A stretch of DNA of 64,000 nt from Pseudomaricurvus alkylphenolicus. Lineage in GTDB: Bacteria; Pseudomonadota; Gammaproteobacteria; Pseudomonadales; Cellvibrionaceae. The notes beneath the pieces were generated by a model. That model was not told the DNA's origin. It made no database searches and worked only from the letters and a program-made list of their open reading frames with translations. Both the position numbers and the translations under genes were made by a program. Location of the stretch: positions 1 through 64,000 of the forward strand of contig NZ_JAAQPI010000020.1 in NCBI RefSeq assembly GCF_011683955.1, in the 5' to 3' direction. Positions within the stretch are counted from its first letter, which is position 1. Each line of letters starts with the position of its first letter. This document shows positions 25,956 to 39,340 of this stretch, in pieces.

Positions 25956-27389
25956 ATGAACGAAAACCTGATTGAAATCGCCTACATTCTGGCCGCTTCG
26001 CTGTTTATTCTCGGCATTAAGGGGCTGGCAAAACCCAAGACCGCAGTACGTGGCAACCAAATGGCTGCCACCGGTATGCTGATCGCCATAGTGGTGACGC
26101 TGCTCAATAGCACCGTGGTGAGCTACGAATGGATTCTCGCCGGTGCTATTGTCGGTGCCATCATTGGTGCCACGCTGGCCATCAAAATCCAGATGACTGC
26201 TATGCCGCAGCTGATCGCCTTGTTGAACGGCTTTGGTGGTGGTGCATCGCTGACCGTCGCCGCGGCGGAGTTCTTCAAGAGCCAGCCGGTCAGCGGTGAT
26301 TTGGCCACCATGGCGGCCACTGCCGCCGGCCACGATGTTACCGGTATGGGCACCTTTGCCATGATAGCGACCGGTGCGGCCGTGTTTATTGGTGCGGTCA
26401 CCCTGACGGGCTCCTTTATCGCCTTCGCCAAACTGCAGGAAATCATCGATGGCAAGCCCATGGGTTTTGCAGGCCAGCAGGCGGCCAGCGCACTGCTGTT
26501 GATCGGCTCCATTGTGGCCATTGGTTACCTGACCATTGAACCCACCAATACCGACCTGTTCTGGGCGATGGTGGCAGCAGCCTGTCTGCTGGGTGTTCTT
26601 CTGGTGATGCCCATTGGCGGCGCCGATATGCCAGTGGTTATTGCCCTGCTGAACTCTTACTCGGGTATTGCTGCAGCCGCAGCCGGCTTTGTCATGGGCA
26701 ACAGCGTACTGATTATCTCCGGTTCGCTGGTTGGTGCCTCCGGTCTGATCCTCACGCAAATTATGTGTAAGGCGATGAACCGCTCACTCACCAACGTGCT
26801 CTTTGGTGTGATGGCCGAGGGTGGCGAAACCATGGACGCCGACGAAGTCTACGCCGGCAAGGTGAAATCCAGCTCTCCTGACGAAGTGGGTATGCTGCTG
26901 GAGACCGCCCGTCGCGTAGTGATTGTACCCGGCTTTGGTCTGGCTATGGCGCAGGCCCAGCACGCGGTGCGTGACCTGGCCGACACCCTGGAAGATCGCG
27001 GCGTTGAAGTTGAATACGCCATTCACCCGGTTGCCGGTCGTATGCCTGGCCATATGAACGTGCTGCTGGCAGAAGCTGAGGTGGACTACGACAAGTTGAA
27101 GGAAATGGATCATATCAACCCCACCTTCGAACAAACCGATGTGGTTATCGTGATCGGCGCCAACGACGTAACCAACCCACTGGCCCGCGAAGACAAAGGC
27201 AGCCCCATTTATGGCATGCCGATTCTGAACGTGGATAAAGCCAAGACGGTGGTGGTGGTGAAGCGCTCACTGTCTCCCGGTTTTGCCGGACTGCCCAACC
27301 CACTGTTCGCCAAGGACAACACATTGATGCTGTTTGGTGACGGTAAGGGCGCGGTACTGGATCTGGTAGGAGCTCTTAAGGAAGCCTGA
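25956..27389 (+). CDS. pntB: NAD(P) transhydrogenase subunit beta
   Basis: A 477-residue subunit: about eight transmembrane helices up to residue 270, then the NADP(H)-binding domain, with the signature VIVPGFGLAMAQAQHAVRDL, the HPVAGRMPGHMNVLLAEA loop and VIVIGANDVTNPLA near the C-terminus. With pntAA and pntAB it makes a complete enzyme. The gene ends 25 bp before a strong terminator, and its last 14 bases overlap the convergent gene on the other strand. Confidence 0.97.
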   Translation: MNENLIEIAYILAASLFILGIKGLAKPKTAVRGNQMAATGMLIAIVVTLLNSTVVSYEWILAGAIVGAIIGATLAIKIQMTAMPQLIALLNGFGGGASLTVAAAEFFKSQPVSGDLATMAATAAGHDVTGMGTFAMIATGAAVFIGAVTLTGSFIAFAKLQEIIDGKPMGFAGQQAASALLLIGSIVAIGYLTIEPTNTDLFWAMVAAACLLGVLLVMPIGGADMPVVIALLNSYSGIAAAAAGFVMGNSVLIISGSLVGASGLILTQIMCKAMNRSLTNVLFGVMAEGGETMDADEVYAGKVKSSSPDEVGMLLETARRVVIVPGFGLAMAQAQHAVRDLADTLEDRGVEVEYAIHPVAGRMPGHMNVLLAEAEVDYDKLKEMDHINPTFEQTDVVIVIGANDVTNPLAREDKGSPIYGMPILNVDKAKTVVVVKRSLSPGFAGLPNPLFAKDNTLMLFGDGKGAVLDLVGALKEA

Positions 27390-28197
27390 TCGATTTTTCA
27401 CTATGTTCAATAGAAGGCCGGACCGACTCAGTCGGTTCGGCCTTTTTTGTATAGTCGAGAGGCCCATAAAGCTCCGGCGGCATCTGACGGCAAGTGCGCA
27501 AGGCCCGATTAAACAGAGGTAAAAAATCCGGATAACGAGCGTCAAATTCCTTACCGAAATAGACCACAAACGGCGACTGAAGAATGGGACGAACAATCCC
27601 TGTGCTTTGCCGCCCGAGGCTGCGCATGGTTGAGGACAGGAAGATACCAGACGTAATAATTGCATCCAGTCGACCGCCTTCGAGCATTTTCACCATCTGG
27701 TGGTATCCGGCGACCTGATGCAGTTCACCCTGCATCACCACCGACAAAGCCCGCCCAATTTCAACTTCCACATTGGCCCCGCTCATAACCCCTACACGCC
27801 TTAGCGGCTCATTGGGCCTTGGCCGGTAGGAAACTTTTGAGTCTTCAACCAGGTAATCGGAAGGGTAAGCGTAGGCGTTGCGGGCCATATCCCAATTGGC
27901 CGGAAAAAAGCCATCACTGCGGCCCGATGCCAGATTGCGTTGAATACGAACAAAAGGGCCGTCGCTGTACTCAACCCGATAGGGAATCTGATCAAAGGTG
28001 CAATCCAGCACTTGCCGGAACAGACCGCGCAATTGACCATCCTCGAAGATCAGCAGTCCCGGCCAGCGGGCCACCTGCCGGTCCAGAGTTTGCAGACGCA
28101 CCGGCACCTGCTGTTCCAGCGACGGCAATGACCTAGACTCCGACCAGCCCGGCATAATAGAAACCACCAGACCAAGAGAAAGAAAAAAACGACGCAA
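27376..28197 (-). CDS. Solute-binding-protein-like periplasmic protein
   Basis: A 273-residue protein with a signal peptide (MRRFFLSLGLVVSIMPGWS) and features of the extracellular solute-binding family 3 fold, such as YSDGPFVRIQRNLASGRSDGFFP and the hinge region RRVGVMSGANVEVEIG. No permease or ATPase gene is beside it, so it may be an amino-acid-type sensor or an orphan binding protein. The last 40 or so residues are low in hydrophobic character and their codons overlap the pntB terminator and the pntB stop, so the C-terminal tail is probably a late extension. The ligand is not predictable. Confidence 0.75.
   Translation of the reverse strand: MRRFFLSLGLVVSIMPGWSESRSLPSLEQQVPVRLQTLDRQVARWPGLLIFEDGQLRGLFRQVLDCTFDQIPYRVEYSDGPFVRIQRNLASGRSDGFFPANWDMARNAYAYPSDYLVEDSKVSYRPRPNEPLRRVGVMSGANVEVEIGRALSVVMQGELHQVAGYHQMVKMLEGGRLDAIITSGIFLSSTMRSLGRQSTGIVRPILQSPFVVYFGKEFDARYPDFLPLFNRALRTCRQMPPELYGPLDYTKKAEPTESVRPSIEHSEKSIRLP
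27414..27448 (+). terminator. Rho-independent terminator after pntB
   Basis: A 14-bp stem (AAGGCCGGACCGAC with GTCGGTTCGGCCTT, one G-T wobble) and a 3-base loop, running into six T residues. It ends the pnt transcript. It lies inside the 3' end of the opposite-strand gene, so its sequence is also coding there. Confidence 0.9.
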
Positions 28198-28274: not shown

Positions 28275-29258
28275 TCAGGCAAATGGGGTGAACGTATCGA
28301 CCGCAATCTCCTGTATCGCCGCACCCGCCAGGAAGCATTGTTTACGAAGTTTTGATGTAAAGGATTCAGCCCCACAGATGTAAATTTTGTGCCCCTGTAG
28401 ACTTGGAAAATGCTGATGAACGTAGTTATAGATATCCGCTTGCACAGAGTCTATAGCAAACGTGTTGCAGTCGGCGAAGTCCTCCTGATACACCAGCTTG
28501 ATGTTTAGCTGAGCGGCTGCCTGCAGCAGAGACAGTTCCTCCAGCAAATAAAAATCATGGGGCGAGCGGGCCGCCCACAACAGCTGCATCTCGCCCTTGT
28601 GTCCCTGACTCAGAGCCTCTTTGATAACACCCAGCACCGGCGCCAATCCGGTTCCTGCTGCCAACAACAGCAAGGGCTGCTCAGAGGCTGCAGAATAGAT
28701 ACAGGTTCCCATGGGCCCCTGCACCTGCAAGCAGTCTCCCGGCTCTACTTCCGTGGCCAGCCAGTTGGAAAAAGCGCCATCCGCGTAGTGGCGAATGTGG
28801 AACTCCAAGGTGCCGCTGCCGTCAGACGCGTTGGCAATGGAATAACATCTGGCCAGGAAATCACCCGAGCCGGAAGGCCGCCCCAATAATGTGACGTACT
28901 GACCCGGCTGATAATCGAGAGCCGCCTCAAGGGTAACGCCGAGTACTGAAGGATTCAGCCAACGTTTATCAACAACCTTCGCATTAATTTTCAGCTGTTC
29001 ACCGTCAACCCTGTTTACCGCCATCGGCTCCCAGGGCTGGCACTGGCAGGCCAGGAAATAACCCAGGCGCTTTTGTGCCTCGGTTAATCCCTGCTGACAA
29101 TTTACCAGTTTCTCGCTGTCGCTCTGAAGCAAACAGGACTGGCAGACACCCGAACGACAACCGTTGGCGATATCAAAGCCTGCTCTCAGCAGACCATCCA
29201 GCAGCGGCTCGTTTTCGCCGAGCCGGATGGTTTCTCCCTCGAAATCAATGGCAGTCAT
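28275..29258 (-). CDS. 2Fe-2S/FAD/NAD(P)H oxidoreductase
   Basis: A 327-residue electron-transfer protein. The N-terminal plant-type ferredoxin domain has NGCRSGVCQSC and a distal cysteine (LACQC). An FNR-type domain follows, with FAD motif ARCYSIAN (RxYS) near residue 140 and the NAD(P) region LLLAAGTGLAPVLGVIK, then CGAESF at the C-terminus. The order matches phenol-hydroxylase- and CDP-glucoseen-type reductases. It is the last gene of the six-gene haem operon and starts 8 bp after the truncated haemoglobin gene, so it is probably the haemoglobin's reductase, together acting like a split flavohaemoglobin. That pairing is inference from position. Confidence 0.9.
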   Translation of the reverse strand: MTAIDFEGETIRLGENEPLLDGLLRAGFDIANGCRSGVCQSCLLQSDSEKLVNCQQGLTEAQKRLGYFLACQCQPWEPMAVNRVDGEQLKINAKVVDKRWLNPSVLGVTLEAALDYQPGQYVTLLGRPSGSGDFLARCYSIANASDGSGTLEFHIRHYADGAFSNWLATEVEPGDCLQVQGPMGTCIYSAASEQPLLLLAAGTGLAPVLGVIKEALSQGHKGEMQLLWAARSPHDFYLLEELSLLQAAAQLNIKLVYQEDFADCNTFAIDSVQADIYNYVHQHFPSLQGHKIYICGAESFTSKLRKQCFLAGAAIQEIAVDTFTPFA

Positions 29259-29266
29259 AGCGAACC

Positions 29267-29632
29267 TCAGGCGGCAGGCTCCAGATTGAGCACATCGTCT
29301 TTAACGCTCAGGCAGACGGCGATGATGTCATCTATGTATTCCTGCGGAACCTCCAGCTCCTTGAGTGTTGCTACCAGGTTTTCCGCCACCGCGTTAAAGT
29401 GCTCTTCCTTCAGATTCAGGTGCTTGTGGCCCTCACGCATATCCTTGCCCGTGTAACTGTTGGGACCACCAAAGGCCATGGTCAAGAATGCTTTTTGTTT
29501 AACATGTTGATTCTCCATATCAACGGTATCGAAGAACTCACTGATACGTTCGTCCATCAGCACCTTGCGATAAAAAATATCCACGGCAGCATTCACCGCC
29601 GCCTCGCCACCAATTTTTTCGTAAATAGACAT
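29267..29632 (-). CDS. Group 1 truncated haemoglobin (TrHbN type)
   Basis: A 121-residue globin. The distal tyrosine B10 lies in DIFYRKV (Tyr21), and the proximal histidine in REGHKHLNL (His69), as in the truncated haemoglobins of cyanobacteria and mycobacteria. Proteins of this group bind oxygen and often convert NO to nitrate. AGGAAAAA is just before the ATG. It is placed between a cytochrome c lipoprotein gene and a reductase gene with gaps of 17 and 8 bp, which points to a role in NO or oxygen chemistry linked to the operon. Confidence 0.93.
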   Translation of the reverse strand: MSIYEKIGGEAAVNAAVDIFYRKVLMDERISEFFDTVDMENQHVKQKAFLTMAFGGPNSYTGKDMREGHKHLNLKEEHFNAVAENLVATLKELEVPQEYIDDIIAVCLSVKDDVLNLEPAA

Positions 29633-29649
29633 TGTTTTTTCCTTTCAGA

Positions 29650-30006
29650 TTAATTTGCCATTGCGACATAATATTCAACGATCTGGCGTATCTCGGCCTC
29701 AGTCAGGTGATCCTTACCGCCTTTGGCTGGCATCAAGCCATAGCCTTCAACCGCATGCTTGACCAAAACGTCGACACCTTGTGGCAGACGATCTGCCCAC
29801 ATTTTCTTATTGCCCACAATAGGGGCACCATTGATACCCTGTGCGTGGCAGACTTTGCAGTTTTGTTTGTACAACAACTCCGCGGCCTTGTGTTGCTGTT
29901 CAGCAGTACCGAGGCTCTCGGTACTGCCGCGCTCACCCGAACAACCGACGAGCGCGGCGATAATCAATATCGCCGAAAAGCATAACCTCACTCTTGAAGC
30001 CAACAT
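29650..30006 (-). CDS. Class I cytochrome c lipoprotein (c5-like)
   Basis: A 118-residue single-haem cytochrome. A lipobox LVGC (Cys22) ends the signal sequence, so it is membrane-tethered. The haem site is CKVCH (50-54) and the likely axial methionine is in GLMPAKGG (Met92). This resembles cytochrome c5 and short c553 types. It probably carries electrons in the periplasm between the multihaem protein and a terminal acceptor. It lies 17 bp from each neighbour. Confidence 0.9.
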   Translation of the reverse strand: MLASRVRLCFSAILIIAALVGCSGERGSTESLGTAEQQHKAAELLYKQNCKVCHAQGINGAPIVGNKKMWADRLPQGVDVLVKHAVEGYGLMPAKGGKDHLTEAEIRQIVEYYVAMAN

Positions 30007-30023
30007 ATGGGACCTGCGATTAC

Positions 30024-30593
30024 TTAGAGAGGCACACGAATGACAACACCACCCATCACCTCACCCAATTGAAAATCGCTTTTGGGTGAGTCCTTATGAT
30101 CGTTGTGGCAGGATGTGCAGGCATCGGAAACAGCCACATCGGGATATACCGCCGTAAAGTAGGTGGTATCACCCAGCTTCTCTTCACCGTAGAAATTCTC
30201 TCCGGGGTTGGCGGCAATATATTCCAGGCCTTTTTTCTCCATGTCTGTCTTGGGTGCGTTCTGGCTGTTGATTGGCCAGATGGACTGCAGCGAATAGGTA
30301 AAGTCGTCTGTCATTTCCGCCACCGCTTCGGCCCCGGCACGAAACATCTGCGCTGGCAGCAGAGTGCCGTTGTCGATGTCCTTCCAATGTTCATCCGGTT
30401 TGATCACATTCGCTCCTGCAGGCCCAAGGCGCTTTACCACTAATTTGGTGTAGTTGGTTCTGTCGGCCTTCATAACCGCAAACAGAGAGTCGGTGTAAAT
30501 CTTAGGATCGACCCCTTTGCTTTCAGGCTCCCCGCATCCTGTCAGACCGACCGCAACCGTCGCCATTGCCAACGTCATTAAGGTTTTTTTCAT
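30024..30593 (-). CDS. Tll0287-like (DUF3365) c-type haem lipoprotein
   Basis: A 189-residue protein with lipobox LTGC and one haem-binding motif CTSCH near the C-terminus. The PAS-like Tll0287 fold is suggested by the region from TNYTKLVVKRL onward and by GDTTYFTAVYPDVAVSDACT. Proteins of this kind are haem-based redox or gas sensors, or small electron carriers. The start is the ATG at 30593, seven bases after GAGGA; a GTG two codons upstream is less likely. It sits between the multihaem gene (gap 24) and the cytochrome c gene. Confidence 0.85.
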   Translation of the reverse strand: MKKTLMTLAMATVAVGLTGCGEPESKGVDPKIYTDSLFAVMKADRTNYTKLVVKRLGPAGANVIKPDEHWKDIDNGTLLPAQMFRAGAEAVAEMTDDFTYSLQSIWPINSQNAPKTDMEKKGLEYIAANPGENFYGEEKLGDTTYFTAVYPDVAVSDACTSCHNDHKDSPKSDFQLGEVMGGVVIRVPL

Positions 30594-30617
30594 GATCACT
30601 TCCTCAGTTGTAGAAAA

Positions 30618-32033
30618 TTAATGTTTCACTCGTTTTACAGCCCAATCCACAGATTCAATATGTTGTTTTGGATTCCCGGAAAAATTGTTTCGAATCAGTG
30701 TCTCATCAGCCAGAGCGTCAATGGCGAACTCCAGACTGTGACAGCTCATACAAACGGGCCTGATCATTTTCTCATTGGGCCGCAATGTCAGATTCTGGTT
30801 ATGCACAACGGAAATGACGGCGTTTTCCGTCGCTTCATGGCCTTCTCCCAGGCTCGCACCACCATCTACCGTTTTTTCGAGGGACAGGTTGCCGGGGGTC
30901 GCAGCGGCAAAGTTAAGTCCGGGGTTTTTGTGTGTCATCCTCGGCATGTGACAAGTCGCACAGGTAACGGCTTCCGCCCAAGGCTTGCTGCCATCAATCG
31001 CGGCCTGCGCGAGTCGGCCGTGCGGTGAGTTCAGAAAAGCTCTGGAGTGCTCGTCGTCGTGGCAGGACAGACACGCGCCTACAGCGGCATTTTGCGTATC
31101 AAAGTCATGCGCTCCATGACAGCTGGTGCATCCCTGGGGTTCATGCAGCGCCTGGGACTGGAATTGCAGAGTGGAATCTTGTGGCGTTACGGCACTAAAA
31201 CCGGCCGCCAGTTTCATTCCATGTTTTCCATCGAGATAACCCCGCGTTTCCAGCGCATGACAACTCTGGCACTGCGCCAAACCGGGTTTCTCCAACCATT
31301 CGGCCTGATCCATATCGCTCCCCTGCGTATGGCAACCAGCACAATCAACACCGGCACGACCATGGGCACTGAGCAACCATTGCCCCGTAATGGTGTCGTG
31401 CTGCTGCCGCTGAACCTGGCTATCGGCAATCTGCACCGGCAATCGAGTCGGCGCTTGGTTGGCAGCATGGTTGGAATCGGCCAATCGGGCGACCACCTGC
31501 AGCCACGGCTGGCCGGAATTCTCCACCAGAAAGTCTTCATATAAGGCGCGGTTATCATGGTAATTGTGGCAGCCCGCACTGGCGCAGGAGTCAAAAGCCA
31601 AACCCTGATGACTGAGCCGACTCTCCCCAATATCCTGATGACAGTGATAACAGTAGTCTTCTGGCAATGTCACACCCATGGGGTGAGTTTGCTCTTTCTG
31701 GTGCTCCGTGTGACAACTGACGCACTGACGTGCATCAATCACTTCCAACAGGTCGGCATTGCGGGGATCGGTAAACTTCTTGCGGGGATGCGAATCGTGA
31801 GCCAATGCCAAATCATCGCCGTGGCAATCCACACAGGCCGACTGAATGACCTCTCCACCGCCAAAAGCATCGGTGTGGCAGGAGGAGCACGCCAATTCAA
31901 TCTGGAAATGGCCATGACTGGCCTCACCGATCAGCAGCTCGCTTTTGTCTTCCGCTTTTAGCAGGACAAAAGAGAAGTAGCCGGCAATTGCCAACGTCAT
32001 TAATACCCAGCTTGACCAAAGAACTCTTTTCAA
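30618..32033 (-). CDS. Multihaem cytochrome c (11 haem motifs)
   Basis: A 471-residue protein with an N-terminal membrane anchor (VLMTLAIAGYFSFVLL). Ten CXXCH motifs can be counted: CSSCH, CVDCH, CVSCH, CYHCH, CAGCH, CQSCH, CTSCH, CLSCH, CATCH and CMSCH. CASAGCH is an eleventh with CX4CH spacing. Many distal histidines lie between them, fitting bis-His haems. It lacks the CXXCK of NrfA and does not match hydroxylamine oxidoreductase by its motif spacing. It would be a long electron wire in the periplasm, taking electrons from the membrane flavoprotein encoded just upstream. Whether it is itself a reductase of nitrite or another substrate is open. Confidence 0.88.
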   Translation of the reverse strand: MKRVLWSSWVLMTLAIAGYFSFVLLKAEDKSELLIGEASHGHFQIELACSSCHTDAFGGGEVIQSACVDCHGDDLALAHDSHPRKKFTDPRNADLLEVIDARQCVSCHTEHQKEQTHPMGVTLPEDYCYHCHQDIGESRLSHQGLAFDSCASAGCHNYHDNRALYEDFLVENSGQPWLQVVARLADSNHAANQAPTRLPVQIADSQVQRQQHDTITGQWLLSAHGRAGVDCAGCHTQGSDMDQAEWLEKPGLAQCQSCHALETRGYLDGKHGMKLAAGFSAVTPQDSTLQFQSQALHEPQGCTSCHGAHDFDTQNAAVGACLSCHDDEHSRAFLNSPHGRLAQAAIDGSKPWAEAVTCATCHMPRMTHKNPGLNFAAATPGNLSLEKTVDGGASLGEGHEATENAVISVVHNQNLTLRPNEKMIRPVCMSCHSLEFAIDALADETLIRNNFSGNPKQHIESVDWAVKRVKH

Positions 32034-32070
32034 AACGATAACTCTATAAATTCGAATTAAGCTGCATAAA

Positions 32071-34062
32071 TTAGAAATAATAAACAGTGATAATGTGAGC
32101 GATCAGCAACACCGGCAGGGGCCAGGCCACGAGAATATGCAGATAGTTCCAACCCTTTTGAATTCCCGCAGCTTGCGCTGGCGCCAGTTTGTGAGCGAGA
32201 CCGGCCACCCCTCCCGCGAGCCCCCCAAAGACCAGCACAACCAGAAAGCTCGTCATCAACAGACGATTGAGGTTTTCTCCCAAGTGAAAACCGGTATGCA
32301 ACATCAGCAGACCAGCGCTGACGGTACCGAGAGCTACGTGCAGGAGACGCCAGCCAAAGAACGCTCCCATCCAGGTCCACCCAAGTCGCTTGCGCAAGGA
32401 CATTAAAAGCCCAATAAGGACCAGTCCGAGCAAAGAAAATCCGCTGACCTGTTTCCAGTCTTTGTCATTCCAGATCCGCTCGAACCAACCCACAGCTTGC
32501 ACGCTTTCCGAAACCTGAGCTGCGGGGAGAAACATCATGATCAGTGCTGCTACGACCGCCATAAAACTGCCGGCCAACAGAAAAGGCCATGCTCGCGCCC
32601 TCTCCAATCTGGTGCCCAATATCTGCGATAGCATTGGCCGGCAGGAACCGCACACCGTACCCGCGCGAGTGGCCTCCCCGAGGGCATCGACGCTGCTGCA
32701 TCCATCGGCCTGGGCCTTCTTTAGATCCTGCAGCGTGATCTGGTTACACTGACAGATGATGGAAGAGAGCGGCCATCGAGAAACGTCACCTGCACCCTGC
32801 AACAGCCATAACCGCCCCAGTACCCAGAACATCAGCCACTGCCAGGGCCAAATCCGTCGTCCACTTTTGTAGGATTCCTCAATGCGGCGAAATTCCGCCC
32901 AGGGACCAAAACCCACCGCGCCGATCAATCGGCCCTTATGCAATACCAGCTTTCGGTACTTCTGCTGCCGGCGATGCCGGAACGTTATTTCCCGCTGCGC
33001 AGGTCGCTGGGGAAGATCATTGACATCACCGATACTGACAACGTCTTCTCCGATCACTTTGAGTCGACTTACCGTGGTAGATCCCTGGTAGCAGGCATTA
33101 CCACCCGCCACCGCTTCCGCAGCGACAGCGGCCTGCTCCAGACCGGGACTGACCAGCCCGTAGGTTTTGCCCCGGTGTTCACAGCATTCTCCAATGGCAT
33201 AAACGTGTGGATCTGATGTTTGCAGTGAGTCGTTAACCAGTATGCCGGTAGCCACTTTTAGACGCGCCGACCGGGCCAGCTCCATATTGGGGCGTATGCC
33301 GGCACAAAGGAGTACTGTGTCGCAGGCCAATACCTGCCCATCGCGGGTTCGAATGGCGGTCACGCGGCCATTGCCCAGCACCTCCCTGACACCAGAGTTG
33401 GTAATGACCTCTATGCCCAAAGCTCGAACCTTTTGCATCAACAAAGCAGCTGCGGGATCGTCCAGCTGGCGGTTCATTAACCGTTCGCCCTGCTGGATAA
33501 CCGTCACCCGGGTACTTAGCCGCGACAAACCGCGCGCAGCTTCCAATCCCAAAACGCCGCCGCCAACAATCACCAAGTGACGGGCACGGGCAACGCGGGA
33601 GTACAACGCGTGGGCATCTTTCATATTTCGGAATGTATAAACCCCCTGACGCTGCACGCCGTCAATACTCGGTACGTGGGCCCTGGCCCCAGTGGCAATC
33701 ACCAGCTTGTCGTAGGCAAAGCGTCGACCGAGTGAATCCCCTACGGTTTGTCCCCCAGTGTCGATGTCACAGATGGTCGCTGTACTGTAAGTGAAATTCG
33801 GGTAATCACTGAGATCAGGGAAAGGCAGCTCAATTTGTTCCGGAGTTCGGTCTCCTGACAGCAAACTGCTCAAGAGTACGCGGTTATAGGGCTGGAAAGG
33901 TTCATTGCTAAACAAATGTACCCGTGCCGTCGAGCGGCGGCGCAGCAATTCATCCACAAATCGCATGCCTGCCGGTCCGCTTCCAATCACCAGAATGTTT
34001 TCTGTGACAGCCGGCTCGTATTGACGAACCGCCATCTCAGACTCCAACCTGTGTGCCAACAT
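32071..34062 (-). CDS. NirB/NasC-like flavoprotein fused to membrane cytochrome-like domain
   Basis: A 663-residue chimaera. Residues 20 to about 330 form an FAD/NAD(P)H oxidoreductase like the N-terminus of NirB (ILVIGSGPAGMRFVDELLRR, a second loop IVGGGVLGLEAARGL, and the FAD motif HVYAIGECCEHRG). From about 435 a BFD-type 2Fe-2S domain follows (CQCNQITL, then CGSC). The sulfite/nitrite reductase part of NirB is absent. Instead, from about 495 there are five membrane helices with histidines in LLHVALG, LMLHTGFH, YLHIL and IAHII, suggesting b-type haems. It would pass NAD(P)H electrons into the membrane and on to the multihaem protein. Two starts are possible, 34062 and 34035 (GGAG six bases before the latter). 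Confidence 0.85.
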   Translation of the reverse strand: MLAHRLESEMAVRQYEPAVTENILVIGSGPAGMRFVDELLRRRSTARVHLFSNEPFQPYNRVLLSSLLSGDRTPEQIELPFPDLSDYPNFTYSTATICDIDTGGQTVGDSLGRRFAYDKLVIATGARAHVPSIDGVQRQGVYTFRNMKDAHALYSRVARARHLVIVGGGVLGLEAARGLSRLSTRVTVIQQGERLMNRQLDDPAAALLMQKVRALGIEVITNSGVREVLGNGRVTAIRTRDGQVLACDTVLLCAGIRPNMELARSARLKVATGILVNDSLQTSDPHVYAIGECCEHRGKTYGLVSPGLEQAAVAAEAVAGGNACYQGSTTVSRLKVIGEDVVSIGDVNDLPQRPAQREITFRHRRQQKYRKLVLHKGRLIGAVGFGPWAEFRRIEESYKSGRRIWPWQWLMFWVLGRLWLLQGAGDVSRWPLSSIICQCNQITLQDLKKAQADGCSSVDALGEATRAGTVCGSCRPMLSQILGTRLERARAWPFLLAGSFMAVVAALIMMFLPAAQVSESVQAVGWFERIWNDKDWKQVSGFSLLGLVLIGLLMSLRKRLGWTWMGAFFGWRLLHVALGTVSAGLLMLHTGFHLGENLNRLLMTSFLVVLVFGGLAGGVAGLAHKLAPAQAAGIQKGWNYLHILVAWPLPVLLIAHIITVYYF

Positions 34063-34105: not shown

Positions 34106-34153
34106 AAAAAAGGCGCCCACAACCCGCAAATATTTGCGAATCGAGGGCGCCTT
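34106..34153 (-). terminator. Leader terminator upstream of the haem operon
   Basis: On the minus strand AAGGCGCCC (34145-34153) pairs with GGGCGCCTT (34110-34118), followed by six T residues (34106-34111). Its loop contains a perfect 14-bp palindrome, CGCAAATATTTGCG (34125-34138), which extends the structure. It lies in the leader, before the first gene, with only a divergent gene further upstream, so it acts on the operon's own transcript. That is the arrangement of an attenuator. Confidence 0.8.
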
Positions 34154-34193
34154 TGCCGAAAGTCCCGAGCTACGCCGTTGTAGCCGTACTTTC
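34146..34193 (-). ncRNA. Candidate two-hexaloop (ANTAR-type) leader RNA
   Basis: Two hairpins precede the terminator. The first (34168-34185) has stem GGCTAC/GTAGCT and hexaloop AACGGC, within a further stem GAAAGT/ACTTTC. The second (34146-34157) has stem GGC/GCC and hexaloop AAAGGC. Both loops carry A at position 1 and G at position 4, the consensus for RNAs bound by ANTAR proteins such as NasR, NasT and EutV. The second hairpin uses GGCGCC, part of the terminator's 5' arm, so the two structures exclude each other. Its 3-bp stem is short. No ANTAR gene is in the window, so this stays a prediction. Confidence 0.55.
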
Positions 34194-34219: not shown

Positions 34220-34235
34220 AGCATATAGCATGCCA
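34220..34235 (-). promoter_or_regulatory. Sigma-54-type promoter of the haem operon
   Basis: On the minus strand TGGCATGCTATATGCT matches the sigma-54 pattern TGGCAC-N5-TTGCW, with GG and GC exactly 10 bp apart. Two positions differ (T for C, A for T). Transcription would start near 34210 and run straight into the two-hairpin leader. Sigma-54 promoters coupled to NasT-type antitermination are known for nitrate assimilation operons in pseudomonads and Azotobacter. Confidence 0.6.
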
Positions 34236-34375
34236 GACTTAACAGGCCTATGACTTCGAGCCCTGCGGTGAGTGTTGGGAAGGAGAATGTGTTTACGAGG
34301 TGCGCTGACTAGCCTGCAAGCACCAGGCGGGTGCACAGGCTCGAAAGCACAGGAATCCTTGGCTACTATAAAGAA

Positions 34376-37300
34376 ATGGTCAGAAACGTGACTCCCAACC
34401 AATCGATCAAACGCAGCCTGACGTTGCTAATGCTGGTATTGGCCCTGGTACCTGTTTCGCTCGTCTCTGTTTTCAGCTATCAGCAAGCTGCACGCAGCCT
34501 CAAACAGCAGGTGGCCCAGGAACTGGTACAATCTTCCAGCATGGCCGGGCATTTTCTCAACGAGTGGTTCGATTCGCGAGGGCGCGAGCTGGACACACTG
34601 GCCCGTTCCCGCTGGAGCACCGCCACCATTGAAACACTGAACAGCGACTTCGCCGAAAGCGGGCTCACACTGGATAAATACATCGGCAGCACACGCTGGC
34701 GCCATACCGTGGAACCTTTTCAGCAGGTTCTGCAGGAAATCATGGAACGATACCCCAGCAGCTACGACCTGTTCCTGATTGATCGCAAGGGCAACATCCT
34801 ACTGACGGTGACCGAAGAGAGCGATCTCGGCACCAACCTGATTACAGGGCCCTACGCTGATTCTCGCTTTGCCGGTGCCCTAAAAAAGACGCTGGCAAAG
34901 GAAACCCTGGTATTCTCCGATTTGGAACATTACGCCCCTTCCAATAACATCATTGCTGGCTTCATGACCGCTCCAATCCGCGACAACAAGGGCGCAGTGT
35001 CCGGGGTAATGGCGATGCAGGTGAAGCTCGATCAGATCATGGACGTAGTGCGCGCCAGCCAATACAGTCAGCAAGAGCGCTATTTGGTCGGTACAGATGG
35101 ACTACTGCGCAGCCACCTCAGCAGCGAACCGGACACTGCGCTAAGAGTTAGGGTTGATTTGGACCGGTGGCACCAGGAGCCAGCCACCGAGCGGGGAATT
35201 CAAGCCAATGTTGGCTTTTACAAAAACGATAACGGGCTGAACGTTATCGGCGCCCATCGGCAGCTGGATATTTTGGACATTCCCTGGATTCTCGTCAGTG
35301 AAACCGCCACACGCGATGCATTGGCCCCCGCCCGGGATATCGCCACGATTACCGCCCTGTTGCTACTGTTGACTTCCCTGGTTGCGGTAGTCCTGATTCA
35401 GATACTGGCCAACCGAATCACCGCCCCCCTGATCCGGCTGTCACGCGCTGCCAGTGACGCTGCCAAGGGCGTGCCGATGAAACCCGTCGTCGTCGACAGC
35501 CACAACGAATTGGGGCATCTCGCCCACGCATTCAACCAAATGGTGACTGCGAGAAGACGCCATGAGGAAAATCTCGCAGCCTCCAGCCAATACATTGAAA
35601 GCCTGCTGAGAGCCGCCACCGGGTTTTCAATCATCGCCACTGACTGCGATGGCTTGATCACAAGTTTTAACAGCGGTTCTGAACAAATGCTGGGTTATCG
35701 GGCTGACGAGATGATCGGGCGTCTTACGCCCGCTGTGATTCACTGCGCCGACGAAATAGAACAGAGAAGCCGCGAACTGAGCCGCGAACTGCAACGACCC
35801 ATCAGCGGCTTTTCTGTTTTTACGGCCATCGCCGAACGAGACAGCGCGGAAACTCGCGAGTGGACCTATATCGCCAAGGGAGGGCGCCGCATACCGGTAA
35901 CCCTCTCGGTGACCGTTACACGAGACAGCAATCAACAGATCACCGGGTATCTGGGCATTGCCCAGGATATCTCCGAACAGAAGCTGGCGGAGAACGCACT
36001 GGCGGAGAGCAAGCGACAACTGCAGTTGATTATTGAAAGTACAGGCGTGGGAATCTGGGACTGGAATCTGGTTCGCAACAGCATTTCCTTTGATCAGCGT
36101 GCCGCAGAAACACTCGGCTACCAACGCCTTGAACTGGAAGAACTCCCCGACGGCCAACAGCTCAAGTTTTTGCATCCCCGTGATCGCAAACGCGCCAGGA
36201 AGCGACTAGATCACCACTGGCAAGGTAAAACAGATCGCTTTGAGGCGGAAATACGGGTGAGGCATGCCAAAGGCCATTGGCAGTGGGTTCTATTGACCGG
36301 CAAGGTCGTGGAGCATCGCCCCGATGGTACGGCCCGGCGAATGGTTGGCACGATACTGGATATCGACAAGCGTAAGCAAGCCGAGGCGGAAATCACCAAT
36401 CTGTCAAAAATCGCCAGCCAGACCAGTAACGGAGCCATCATTACCAACGCCGCAGGAGAGGTGGAATGGATCAATGACGGGTTTACCCGAATCACCGGGT
36501 ATTCCCTGGAAGAAATGAAGGGGCGTTCGCCGGGCTCCGTTTTACAGGGGGAAGAGACTGACCCGGCGACGGTCAGCGAAATACGGAATGCCCTGGCTCA
36601 GAAGCAGCCCTTCGATGTGGAGATCCTCAATTACCGTAAGAACGGCGAGAGTTACTGGATCGCGGTCAGCTGTAACCCGCTGCACGATGAAGAGGGTCGC
36701 TTGCAGGGTTTTATGGGTATTGAGACCGACATCACTGAACGCAAGCGTAACCAGATCGCCCATCAAAATGCCCTGCGCTACAACCAGGTACTGGCGGAGC
36801 TGACGATTCACCCCAAAATCATGGCGGGCAAGCTGCAGGAAGCGCAAAGCTACCTGACTGAGCAGATGTCCTATGCACTGCAAGTCACTCGCGCCAGCAT
36901 CTGGCTGTTTGCCGAGGACACACTCAGCATTCACTGCTTGGATCTGTATGATGCCCGCACCAATCTCCACTCCAGTGGAGAACGGCTACTGCGTGCTGAT
37001 TACCCAAGCTATTTCGACGCCCTGTTGCGACAGTCACTGATAACGGCTGACGACGCGCGCACCGATCCGGATACCCGCGAATTTAGAGAGACCTACCTCG
37101 ATCCCTTTGGCATCACATCCATGCTGGATGCGATAATCGTCGGTGGCGAGGGTGTTGTTGGCATGGTGTGTTTCGAGCACATTGGCCCGCAACGCGATTG
37201 GAGTTCGGCAGAAGGCAACTTTGCCGGTGCTGTCGCCACAATGATCGGCGGCATCTACTCCAATGAACAACGTCGGGTGGCAGAGGAGGCCCTGATTGCA

Positions 37301-39340
37301 GCGAAAGAAGCCGCTGAAAGTGCCGCTCTGGCCAAAAGTGAATTCTTGGCCATGATGAGCCACGAAATTCGCACCCCTATGAACGGTGTGATCGGCATGC
37401 TGAATTTGTTGCAGCGAACTGAACTCGATGGCGAACAAAGCCGACAGTTGGAAATTGCACAATCCAGCGCTCGTTCACTGCTGTTTTTGATTAATGACAT
37501 TCTGGACTTTTCCAAAATCGATGCTGGCAAAATGGATATGGAATACATCGATTTTGACCTCAGCCACAGTCTGGAGGAATTCGCGGAGGCCATGGCGTTC
37601 AAGGCGCATCAGAAAGGCCTGGAGCTGGTACTGGATGTGACCGATATTACCGAGCCCTGGGTGACAGGCGATCCTGGCAGGATCCGGCAGATTTTCACCA
37701 ATCTCGTCAGCAATTCGCTCAAGTTCACCGAACAGGGTGAGATTGTTATTAGGGCCACACTCAGACACGAGGATGATTGCAGCCACCTGGTCGCCAGCGT
37801 CACCGATACCGGCATTGGTATTCCCAAGGAAAAACAGGCCTCGCTGTTTGAGTCTTTCACCCAGGTGGATGCCTCTACCACTCGCCGCTACGGTGGTACC
37901 GGATTGGGCCTGGCTATTACTAAAAAGCTGTGTCAAATGATGGGGGGCGATGTCAATGTGAGCAGTGGTGACGGTGAGGGCAGCCGCTTCAGTGTGCATC
38001 TACCTCTGCGGCGATGCCCTCAACATCACTTGAGCGTCCCGGACATCAGTCTGGAGGGCCTGCGGGTGCTCATTGTCGATGACAATGCCACCAACCGGGA
38101 AATTTTGCGGGCTCAACTGCAACAGTTTCGGGCGCGGGTTTTTGAAGCCGCCAGTGGCAAAGAGGCGTTGGAGTTTTGCCTACGCCGGGAAAGCCCGCCT
38201 GTGGATATCGCCATACTGGATATGCAAATGCCCGGTATGGACGGGGAGCAATTGGGTGAAAAACTCAAAGCCGACCCCCACACTCACTCGGTGCGCCTGA
38301 TCATGATGACCTCCATGGCCAAACGTCACGATGCCGAGCACCTGGCTGAACTGGGGTTCAGCGCTTACTGCACAAAACCTACCACAACCCGCGATCTGCA
38401 CGATGCGCTGGCCGTTGTCATGGAAGACGGCAAAGTGATGCACAGTGCCCACCCGCTGGTTACCCACGATTTTCTGGTCAGCCTCGATCATCCTGACGAC
38501 ACCGAGATCAACCGCACCATCCATTGGCCGGAGCACTGCCGCCTGTTGTTGGTGGAAGACAACCCTGTTAATCAGGAAGTGGCAACCATGATGCTGGCCG
38601 ATCTCGGTCTGCAGATTGACCTCGCCACCAATGGCCTGGAAGCCATACAAGCGTTACACGGCTCTTCCACGGCCAATCCTTTTACATTGATTTTTATGGA
38701 TTGCCAGATGCCGGAGATGGATGGCTACGAAGCGAGCCGTCAGATCCGAGCCGGTGCGAGCGGCGAACGCTACTTGAAAGTCCCCATCGTGGCGATGACG
38801 GCCAACGCCATGAAGGGGGATCGGGAAAAGTGCCTGGCCTCGGGCATGAATGATTATCTCAGCAAACCCATTGACACTGAAGAACTCTACACCTGCCTGC
38901 ATCGATGGCTGATTGGTCCCGGGCGCAGAGAAGAACAGCTTCGCAGCGCTAATGAACAAGCGAAATCAAAGGAGAAAACCGATAGCCAGAAACCACTGTG
39001 GAATCGCGAACTGGCGCTGAAACGTGTCAATGGCAAACCGGAACGACTGCAGCATCTGACCCAATTGTTTCTGAAAGATATGCCCGCCCGGCGACAACAA
39101 TTGCTGGAAGCCCAGGGCGCGCAACATTTGGAAGAAGTGAAATCGCTGGCGCATATCGTCAAGGGTGTATCCGGTAATCTGGCACTGGAACGTTTGCAGG
39201 ACAGCTCCGCCGCCGTTGAATCAGCAGCACTGGCGTTATTGACGGAGGGCAAGCCGCTGCCCGGTGAACACCCGCTGTGGCTGGAGTTTCTTGAAAGCTT
39301 CAATGAAACGCTCGAACTTTTGGCGGAGGAAGACGACTAA
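34376..39340 (+). CDS. Large hybrid sensor histidine kinase
   Basis: A 1654-residue multidomain kinase. In order: membrane helix (about 12-32), periplasmic double-Cache sensor, second helix near 325, HAMP ([20 protein letters not shown]), three PAS/PAC domains (about 390-790), a GAF domain (about 800-950), HisKA with [10 protein letters not shown] (His near 996), an HATPase with [13 protein letters not shown], two receiver domains ([10 protein letters not shown] and [10 protein letters not shown]) and an HPt domain ([12 protein letters not shown]). It is a phosphorelay kinase with its output regulator elsewhere. The Cache domain should bind a small extracellular ligand. The ATG at 34376 is preferred to a GTG at 34331, but neither has a strong ribosome-binding site. 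It is divergent from the haem operon. Confidence 0.93.

Follow-up and report, generated by a model that had tools for sequence, protein, structure and literature searches.

A conserved flavoprotein, 11-haem cytochrome and Tll0287-like protein, likely an electron relay, in a Pseudomaricurvus operon with a nitrate-type leader

What could be the purpose of an operon in which a membrane-bound flavoprotein, an 11-haem cytochrome, two further haem proteins, a truncated haemoglobin and a flavin reductase follow one another? The question is raised by a locus of Pseudomaricurvus alkylphenolicus (genome of 8.9 Mb), found in a window of 64,000 nucleotides (contig NZ_JAAQPI010000020.1, positions 1 to 64,000, forward strand). 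The six open reading frames (ORFs) span 34062-28275 on the minus strand and are separated, in gene order, by gaps of 37, 18, 17, 17 and 8 bp, which confirmed the one-strand operon with gaps of 8-37 bp described in the initial annotation of this DNA. The families proposed there were also mostly upheld, as Pfam supports the family of each gene except for the C-terminal membrane part of the first, and NCBIfam largely agrees. The genes and the leader elements that precede them are as follows.

34221-34235, minus strand: sigma-54-like promoter, TGGCATGCTATATGC (match to the loose pattern)
34169-34185, minus strand: hairpin with hexaloop AACGGC (A1, G4), candidate NasT/ANTAR site (hexaloop search and folding)
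34106-34154, minus strand: terminator-like leader stem, putative attenuator, with a GGCGCC stem and then a T run (folding and pattern)
32071-34062, minus strand: FLAV, NirB-N-like NAD(P)H:FAD oxidoreductase with BFD (2Fe-2S) and a membrane domain (Pfam, NCBIfam, alignment)
30618-32033, minus strand: MHC, 11-haem cytochrome c (Pfam, motif count, alignment, profile, model)
30024-30599, minus strand: TLL, Tll0287-like (Cache-fold) c-haem protein (Pfam PF11845, alignment; PMC12889525, in part)
29650-30006, minus strand: monohaem cytochrome c with CXXCH and a conserved Met92 (Pfam, alignment)
29267-29632, minus strand: group 1 truncated haemoglobin, trHb (Pfam, alignment, PDB match)
28275-29258, minus strand: 2Fe-2S/FAD/NAD(P) flavin reductase (Pfam, NCBIfam)

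The genes that belong together were deduced from other genomes. Scanning named genomes for the 11-haem protein yielded 47 loci. Of these, 46 hold clear relatives, some of them interrupted by a frame or contig break, and the last is a weak, partial match; by their record titles, the clear relatives belong to gamma-, beta- and alphaproteobacteria and to a single Planctomycetaceae bin. Named, related and class genomes together yielded 83 loci with an MHC above 250 bits, or 73 once identical sequences were merged; the window is not among these 73, nor are locus L113 and the MHC matches that scored no more than 250 bits (e.g., L123-L126). Neighbours were detected with profiles built from the same 73 loci, and genes at contig ends were missed. 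FLAV and TLL were present within 5 kb of MHC in 73/73 non-redundant loci, and the conserved synteny that the initial annotation had asked to be looked for was thus found for FLAV-MHC-TLL. The six genes held together as one set only in part: these three are constant, but cytochrome c was detected in 44/73 loci (counting any within 5 kb; in L041 it lies elsewhere on the other strand), and the truncated haemoglobin and its reductase are interchangeable with another globin. On this gene order, the first three genes form the conserved unit. Of 274 class genomes, 22 had a strong match to MHC (E at most 1e-97), and the very same 22 had one to the FLAV membrane domain (at most 1e-40); looser limits gave 79 genomes for MHC (0.001) and 30 for the membrane domain (1e-6). 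Five stretches with weak matches were all assigned to other clusters, four with haem-rich proteins and the fifth with a 10-haem protein.

Several look-alike arrangements were observed. A weakly FLAV-like membrane protein adjoins a 10-CXXCH protein at L153:3806-9137 and L154:666-3345, the former also having a flavoprotein-like ORF (by eye), and in L150, L151 and L152 a membrane protein adjoins proteins of 21-23 CXXCH (8 in one cut by the contig end). The core itself is present in two copies, L145 and L146, in the 1.7 Mb genome G274.

The Pfam domains of FLAV are Pyr_redox_2, Rubredoxin_C and BFD, as in flavoproteins of the NirB/NasC type; the NAD(P)H/FAD module and the BFD 2Fe-2S domain of the NirB kind are therefore present, and cysteines 437, 439, 471 and 474 of the latter are each kept in 70/71 aligned sequences. 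Of the 794 profile positions of TIGR02374, only 1-469 were matched, with a score of 378.5 bits where the cut-off is 578.35, and no NIR_SIR match was found in FLAV at E 0.01 (Pfam), in accordance with the earlier claim that the nitrite/sulfite reductase (sirohaem) domain of NirB is missing. FLAV differs from NirB/NasC in that the sirohaem domains are replaced by a membrane domain that is likely of the di-haem b type. This domain has two His-x13-His pairs, H575/H589 and H642/H656, each His being present in 70/71 aligned sequences and its column invariant in a second alignment (36/36). We take the spacing to be that of two stacked b haems, and from the two conserved pairs it was deduced that electrons probably cross the membrane through two b haems in FLAV. 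The membrane part of the window protein had no Pfam match; weak matches to DUF4405 were obtained for 20 of 36 aligned members (the window protein not among them) and to cytochrome b561 for 6/36. Despite a confident predicted structure (predicted local distance difference test, pLDDT, 92.9), the fold search returned no solved fold at E 0.001 for this domain, nor did its profile match the PDB. The two His pairs on two helices resemble those of the di-haem b membrane proteins (DUF4405, cytochrome b561), with which NOX/FRE proteins are presumably also comparable; FLAV differs from these in its NirB-like flavin part with a 2Fe-2S cluster.

MHC carries ten CXXCH motifs and one CX4CH, and the identical set was found in 43/43 aligned sequences, window included. 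Outside the motifs, 12 His are conserved, of which the N-terminal part with its five haems has 5 and the C-terminal part with its six haems has 7 (four rows, L044, L054, L068 and L069, were left out of this count). Since these spare His would suffice for all 11 haems, the alignment of MHC gives no sign of an open haem, one without a distal ligand as in the hydroxylamine oxidoreductase/octahaem nitrite reductase superfamily. The protein had been thought to lie outside the known reductase families, and this stood in part: the catalytic CXXCK motif is absent (0/43 aligned sequences), but the C-terminal half shows a distant likeness to the octahaem nitrite reductase/NrfA/hydroxylamine oxidoreductase superfamily. 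The MHC profile had matches to octahaem nitrite reductases (1.3e-10) and to NrfA (7.7e-10), the likeness lying in that half, and the two best Foldseek matches were hydroxylamine oxidoreductases (E 2.1e-3 and 2.8e-3), with nothing at E 0.001, TM-scores of 0.29 or less and a poor model (pLDDT 61.5). The spacing of the CXXCH motifs may account for a part of both the profile and the fold matches. MHC differs from the superfamily in its 11 haem motifs and its extra N-terminal five-haem part as well as in the lack of CXXCK. Two basic residues, K422 and R425, are conserved close to the last haem, and an N-terminal helix may anchor the protein. A search of a viral library with MHC gave no match. Pairs of a five-CXXCH protein and a Tll0287-like protein, reminiscent of TLL combined with the N-terminal half of MHC, were seen at L123:6261-7491, L124:8074-9616 and L023:1156-2784.

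TLL belongs to PF11845, which upheld the earlier call of a Tll0287-like haem protein, and its domain has CXXCH in 72/72 aligned sequences; a 2026 preprint, drawn on here in part like the other papers cited below, further describes this family as a c-haem Cache domain, sCache_heme (PMC12889525). The two CXXCH cysteines are the only conserved ones in TLL, and 19/72 sequences have no other Cys, so that on the alignment the axial Cys of the Cys/His-ligated Tll0287-like type is not conserved. A search of the PDB with TLL gave no match of note. A sensor-only role was considered, and no kinase or chemoreceptor part was found by Pfam in the window protein. In the same preprint, the tested protein of the signalling type held NO (nitric oxide) tightly, while a stand-alone Cys-ligated protein released it fast with or without the axial Cys. 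As a stand-alone protein in which no axial Cys is conserved, TLL is not directly comparable with either of the tested proteins. The label "lipoprotein" for TLL and the cytochrome c is based on lipobox-like starts seen by eye. From the FLAV domains, the b-haem His and the conserved core, FLAV-MHC-TLL is likely a transmembrane electron relay, and the path from NAD(P)H to the periplasm that had been proposed earlier is supported to that degree.

The leader bears on when the operon may be expressed. Along the minus strand, a sigma-54-like site (34235-34221) is followed by the AACGGC hexaloop hairpin (34185-34169) and by the terminator-like stem with its T run (34154-34106), and none of 200 shuffles folded as well as the region 34230-34060 (z -3.98). 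A simple consensus scan did not list the leader terminator, sigma-70-like sites were no more frequent than by chance, and Rfam gave nothing at gathering score in the window. The same elements were sought upstream of FLAV in 71 regions, obtained from 74 candidates (the 73 loci and the window), three of which had too little sequence. The loose sigma-54 pattern was found in 26/71 regions, window included (shuffled mean 1.14, max 4), and AAYGRN hexaloop hairpins in 21/71, window included (shuffled mean 0.36, max 2); both patterns were fixed after some leaders had been viewed, so that the shuffles were not blind, and some regions are near-copies of each other, so that the counts are not independent. 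The strict pattern TGGCAC-N5-TTGC was present in 5/71 regions (shuffled mean 0.02, max 1). A broader A..G hexaloop occurred in 21/44 regions; of six neighbouring loop patterns taken as controls on 44 regions, five were absent and the sixth occurred once. The A at position 1 and the G at position 4 of the hexaloop are important for NasR and EutV (PMC3369931), and the window has such a hairpin ahead of a terminator (34185-34106). Leaders under NasT/ANTAR control may carry two hairpins in tandem; one such hairpin was found in the window, and two close AAYGRN hairpins are present in L051, L056, L058 and L059. With both patterns far above the shuffles, the idea of a sigma-54/attenuator leader of the nitrate kind is supported.

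Nitrate-type genes were found within about 11 kb in 25/73 loci, namely nrtA/nasS-like genes in 18, nasT-like in 13, nirB-like in 5 and napA-like in 1; in L059 a weak permease accounts for the sole such match. Pfam covered few neighbours (the single-domain globin in 3 loci, transporter genes and porin in L033, nasT in L042), the other nrt, nas, nap and nirD names being given by similarity or by eye, and the substrates implied by the transporter names are putative. In L042, nasT (receiver and ANTAR by Pfam) and a nasS-like gene come after the globin, and one contig of genome G066 holds the operon, two nasA-like genes, nirB, an ANTAR gene and a transporter. The window genome has nasA, nirB and one ANTAR protein (PF03861, 3.6e-21), NasT-like by eye. 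In a set of 97 genomes, its own and related ones, 17 with and 80 without MHC, a nasA match better than 1e-120 was found in 16/17 and 58/80, respectively; as evidence, this co-occurrence is weak. A role of the operon as a replacement for NirB was rejected, as NirB is over the cut-off in 15/17 MHC genomes and present as contig-end pieces in G073 and G076; for replacement of Hmp no pattern emerged (over the cut-off in 5/17 with and 30/80 without MHC). Proteins sharing a QHRG motif lie near the operon at L033:966-1829, L135:15823-16761 and L041:7483-8418; they belong to no Pfam family, and their assignment as a nitrate-sensing NIT domain had no Pfam support.

The haemoglobin position is variable. 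The window protein is a group 1 truncated haemoglobin, nearest to 3aq5 (2.9e-33) and cyanoglobins, and Y21 and H69, which we take to be the B10 Tyr and the proximal His, are kept in 19/19 aligned members. The globin is single-domain in 37 loci, truncated in 18, of both kinds in 0 and of neither in 18. The single-domain globin of L033 is nearest to haemoglobin-like flavoprotein chains (3s1i, 3ubc), and then to bacterial haemoglobins and flavohaemoproteins. The 2Fe-2S reductase was found in 16/73 loci, every time beside truncated haemoglobin, and it is therefore likely the electron donor of the latter; on these neighbourhoods the pair is one of two interchangeable haemoglobin solutions. On an MHC tree of 70 rows including the window (4/73 rows with under 9 CXXCH were dropped), the truncated label needs 4 changes versus 16.8 when shuffled and the single-domain label 11 versus 23.9. 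Single-domain globins turn up in more than one place among the truncated-haemoglobin rows (L033 with support 93/83 and the Porticoccus group with 100/99), which suggests that one globin type replaced the other.

Three described systems bear on the function of the globin. In narK-bjgb-flp-nasC of Bradyrhizobium japonicum, a single-domain globin, the kind also found in those 37 loci, and a flavoprotein are tied to nitrate assimilation and NasS-NasT and are proposed to guard against the NO that it generates (PMC4724949), and PMC6759348 agrees on these roles; the sections of the two papers drawn on here mention no membrane electron path, multihaem cytochrome or Tll0287-like protein. A truncated haemoglobin and a ferredoxin reductase also adjoin in Legionella pneumophila (PMC3820574), where they are under NsrR, whereas here the pair closes an operon whose leader is of the nitrate type. 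In mycobacteria, a truncated haemoglobin shares NnaR/GlnR control with nirB (PMC6277429). From these parallels, and thus from family and context, the globin end is most simply read as NO removal, for which the cytoplasmic haemoglobin was found to fit as first suggested.

Taken with the relay, this leads us to propose, with the chances evenly balanced, that the operon is an accessory to nitrate assimilation, combining a globin for cytoplasmic NO with a transmembrane relay to a periplasmic acceptor. Transcription would be started by NtrC and sigma-54 under nitrogen shortage, and NasT would permit passage through the leader terminator when nitrate or nitrite is present. The haemoglobin would convert NO leaked from nitrate and nitrite reduction into nitrate, being reduced by its flavin reductase or, where this is absent, perhaps by FLAV. 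In FLAV, electrons of NAD(P)H would pass through FAD and the 2Fe-2S cluster to the two b haems across the inner membrane, and from there through the 11-haem cytochrome to TLL and the cytochrome c. Nitrogen oxides would thereby also be handled on the periplasmic side; the final acceptor is, at a guess, NO or nitrite by preference. Several observations weigh against this proposal. No terminal acceptor was identified from the loci, and the missing axial Cys of TLL is by itself no argument for NO binding, since the stand-alone protein and its axial-Cys mutant both release NO fast (PMC12889525). The strict hairpin test was negative in 50/71 upstream regions, and no AAYGRN hairpin precedes the nasA/nirB of the window genome itself, where sigma-54-like sites were seen. 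Those nas genes are on another contig than the operon, and the visible stretch of 48/73 loci has no nitrate gene. A globin was undetected in 18/73 loci, among which L032, L044 and L146 have just 70, 2 and 413 bases left past TLL. Other NO defence is not obviously missing, the window genome itself being one of the five MHC genomes with Hmp, and in B. diazoefficiens narK-bjgb-flp rose, rather than fell, in a nasT mutant (PMC6759348).

The alternatives differ mainly in the fate of the periplasmic electrons. MHC, with TLL, could itself be a new type of periplasmic reductase for nitrite, NO or hydroxylamine using NAD(P)H electrons. The profile matches to octahaem nitrite reductases and NrfA, the hydroxylamine oxidoreductases at the top of the Foldseek search, the basic K422 and R425 and the nitrate-type leader all point that way, but with no CXXCK in any aligned sequence, enough conserved His for every haem and fold matches that are poor and may partly reflect CXXCH spacing, we regard this as unlikely. 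The broader proposal that FLAV-MHC-TLL as a whole is a new NAD(P)H-driven NO or nitrite reductase of the periplasm, in which a NOX-like membrane domain would replace the sirohaem domain of NirB and be paired with the 11-haem protein, is also rather improbable; if true, a single operon would let nitrate-grown bacteria detoxify nitrogen oxides on either side of the membrane.

It is more doubtful that the operon is an electron valve that serves redox balance during nitrate use, with FLAV and MHC draining electrons from NAD(P)H into the pool of periplasmic cytochrome c, and oxidases or a nitrate reductase of the periplasm (Nap, for example) as outlets. This would agree with the conserved Met of the operon cytochrome c and with L135, where a napD-like gene and two others that by eye resemble napA (a molybdopterin enzyme) and napF (an Fe-S protein) lie near the operon; however, just 44/73 loci have the cytochrome c and 1/73 has Nap, and the globin would be left unexplained. 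That the electrons are relayed to acceptors outside the cell or in the outer membrane (metal, haem or electrode) is very unlikely. The multihaem wire and the distant clusters that pair a membrane protein with very haem-rich proteins would suit it, but no outer-membrane multihaem partner was recognised among the annotated recurring neighbours (a subset of the clusters), and the porin that recurs in 10/73 loci adjoins nrt-type genes in 8. The accessory role in nitrate assimilation therefore remains our preferred reading.

Two neighbours of the operon in the window were also noted. A gene on the same strand (27376-28197) starts 77 bp past its end; it had no Pfam match and is possibly a periplasmic binding protein (by eye). 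A divergent hybrid sensor kinase (34331-39340; dCache, HAMP, PAS, GAF, receiver and Hpt) shares the upstream region with the operon.

No description of the FLAV-MHC-TLL set was found in open-licence literature by title or abstract start, nor in the sections drawn on of two candidate papers (PMC9230427 and PMC10734462). The parts and the regulation are of known kinds, and their combination appears to be undescribed in that literature.

Nitrate assimilation is usually told as cytoplasmic chemistry. A conserved haem relay of the membrane and periplasm, with a nitrate-type leader and an interchangeable haemoglobin, suggests a part of nitrate assimilation that has been overlooked, and the gene set, the genomes and the signal with which it may be tested are now defined.

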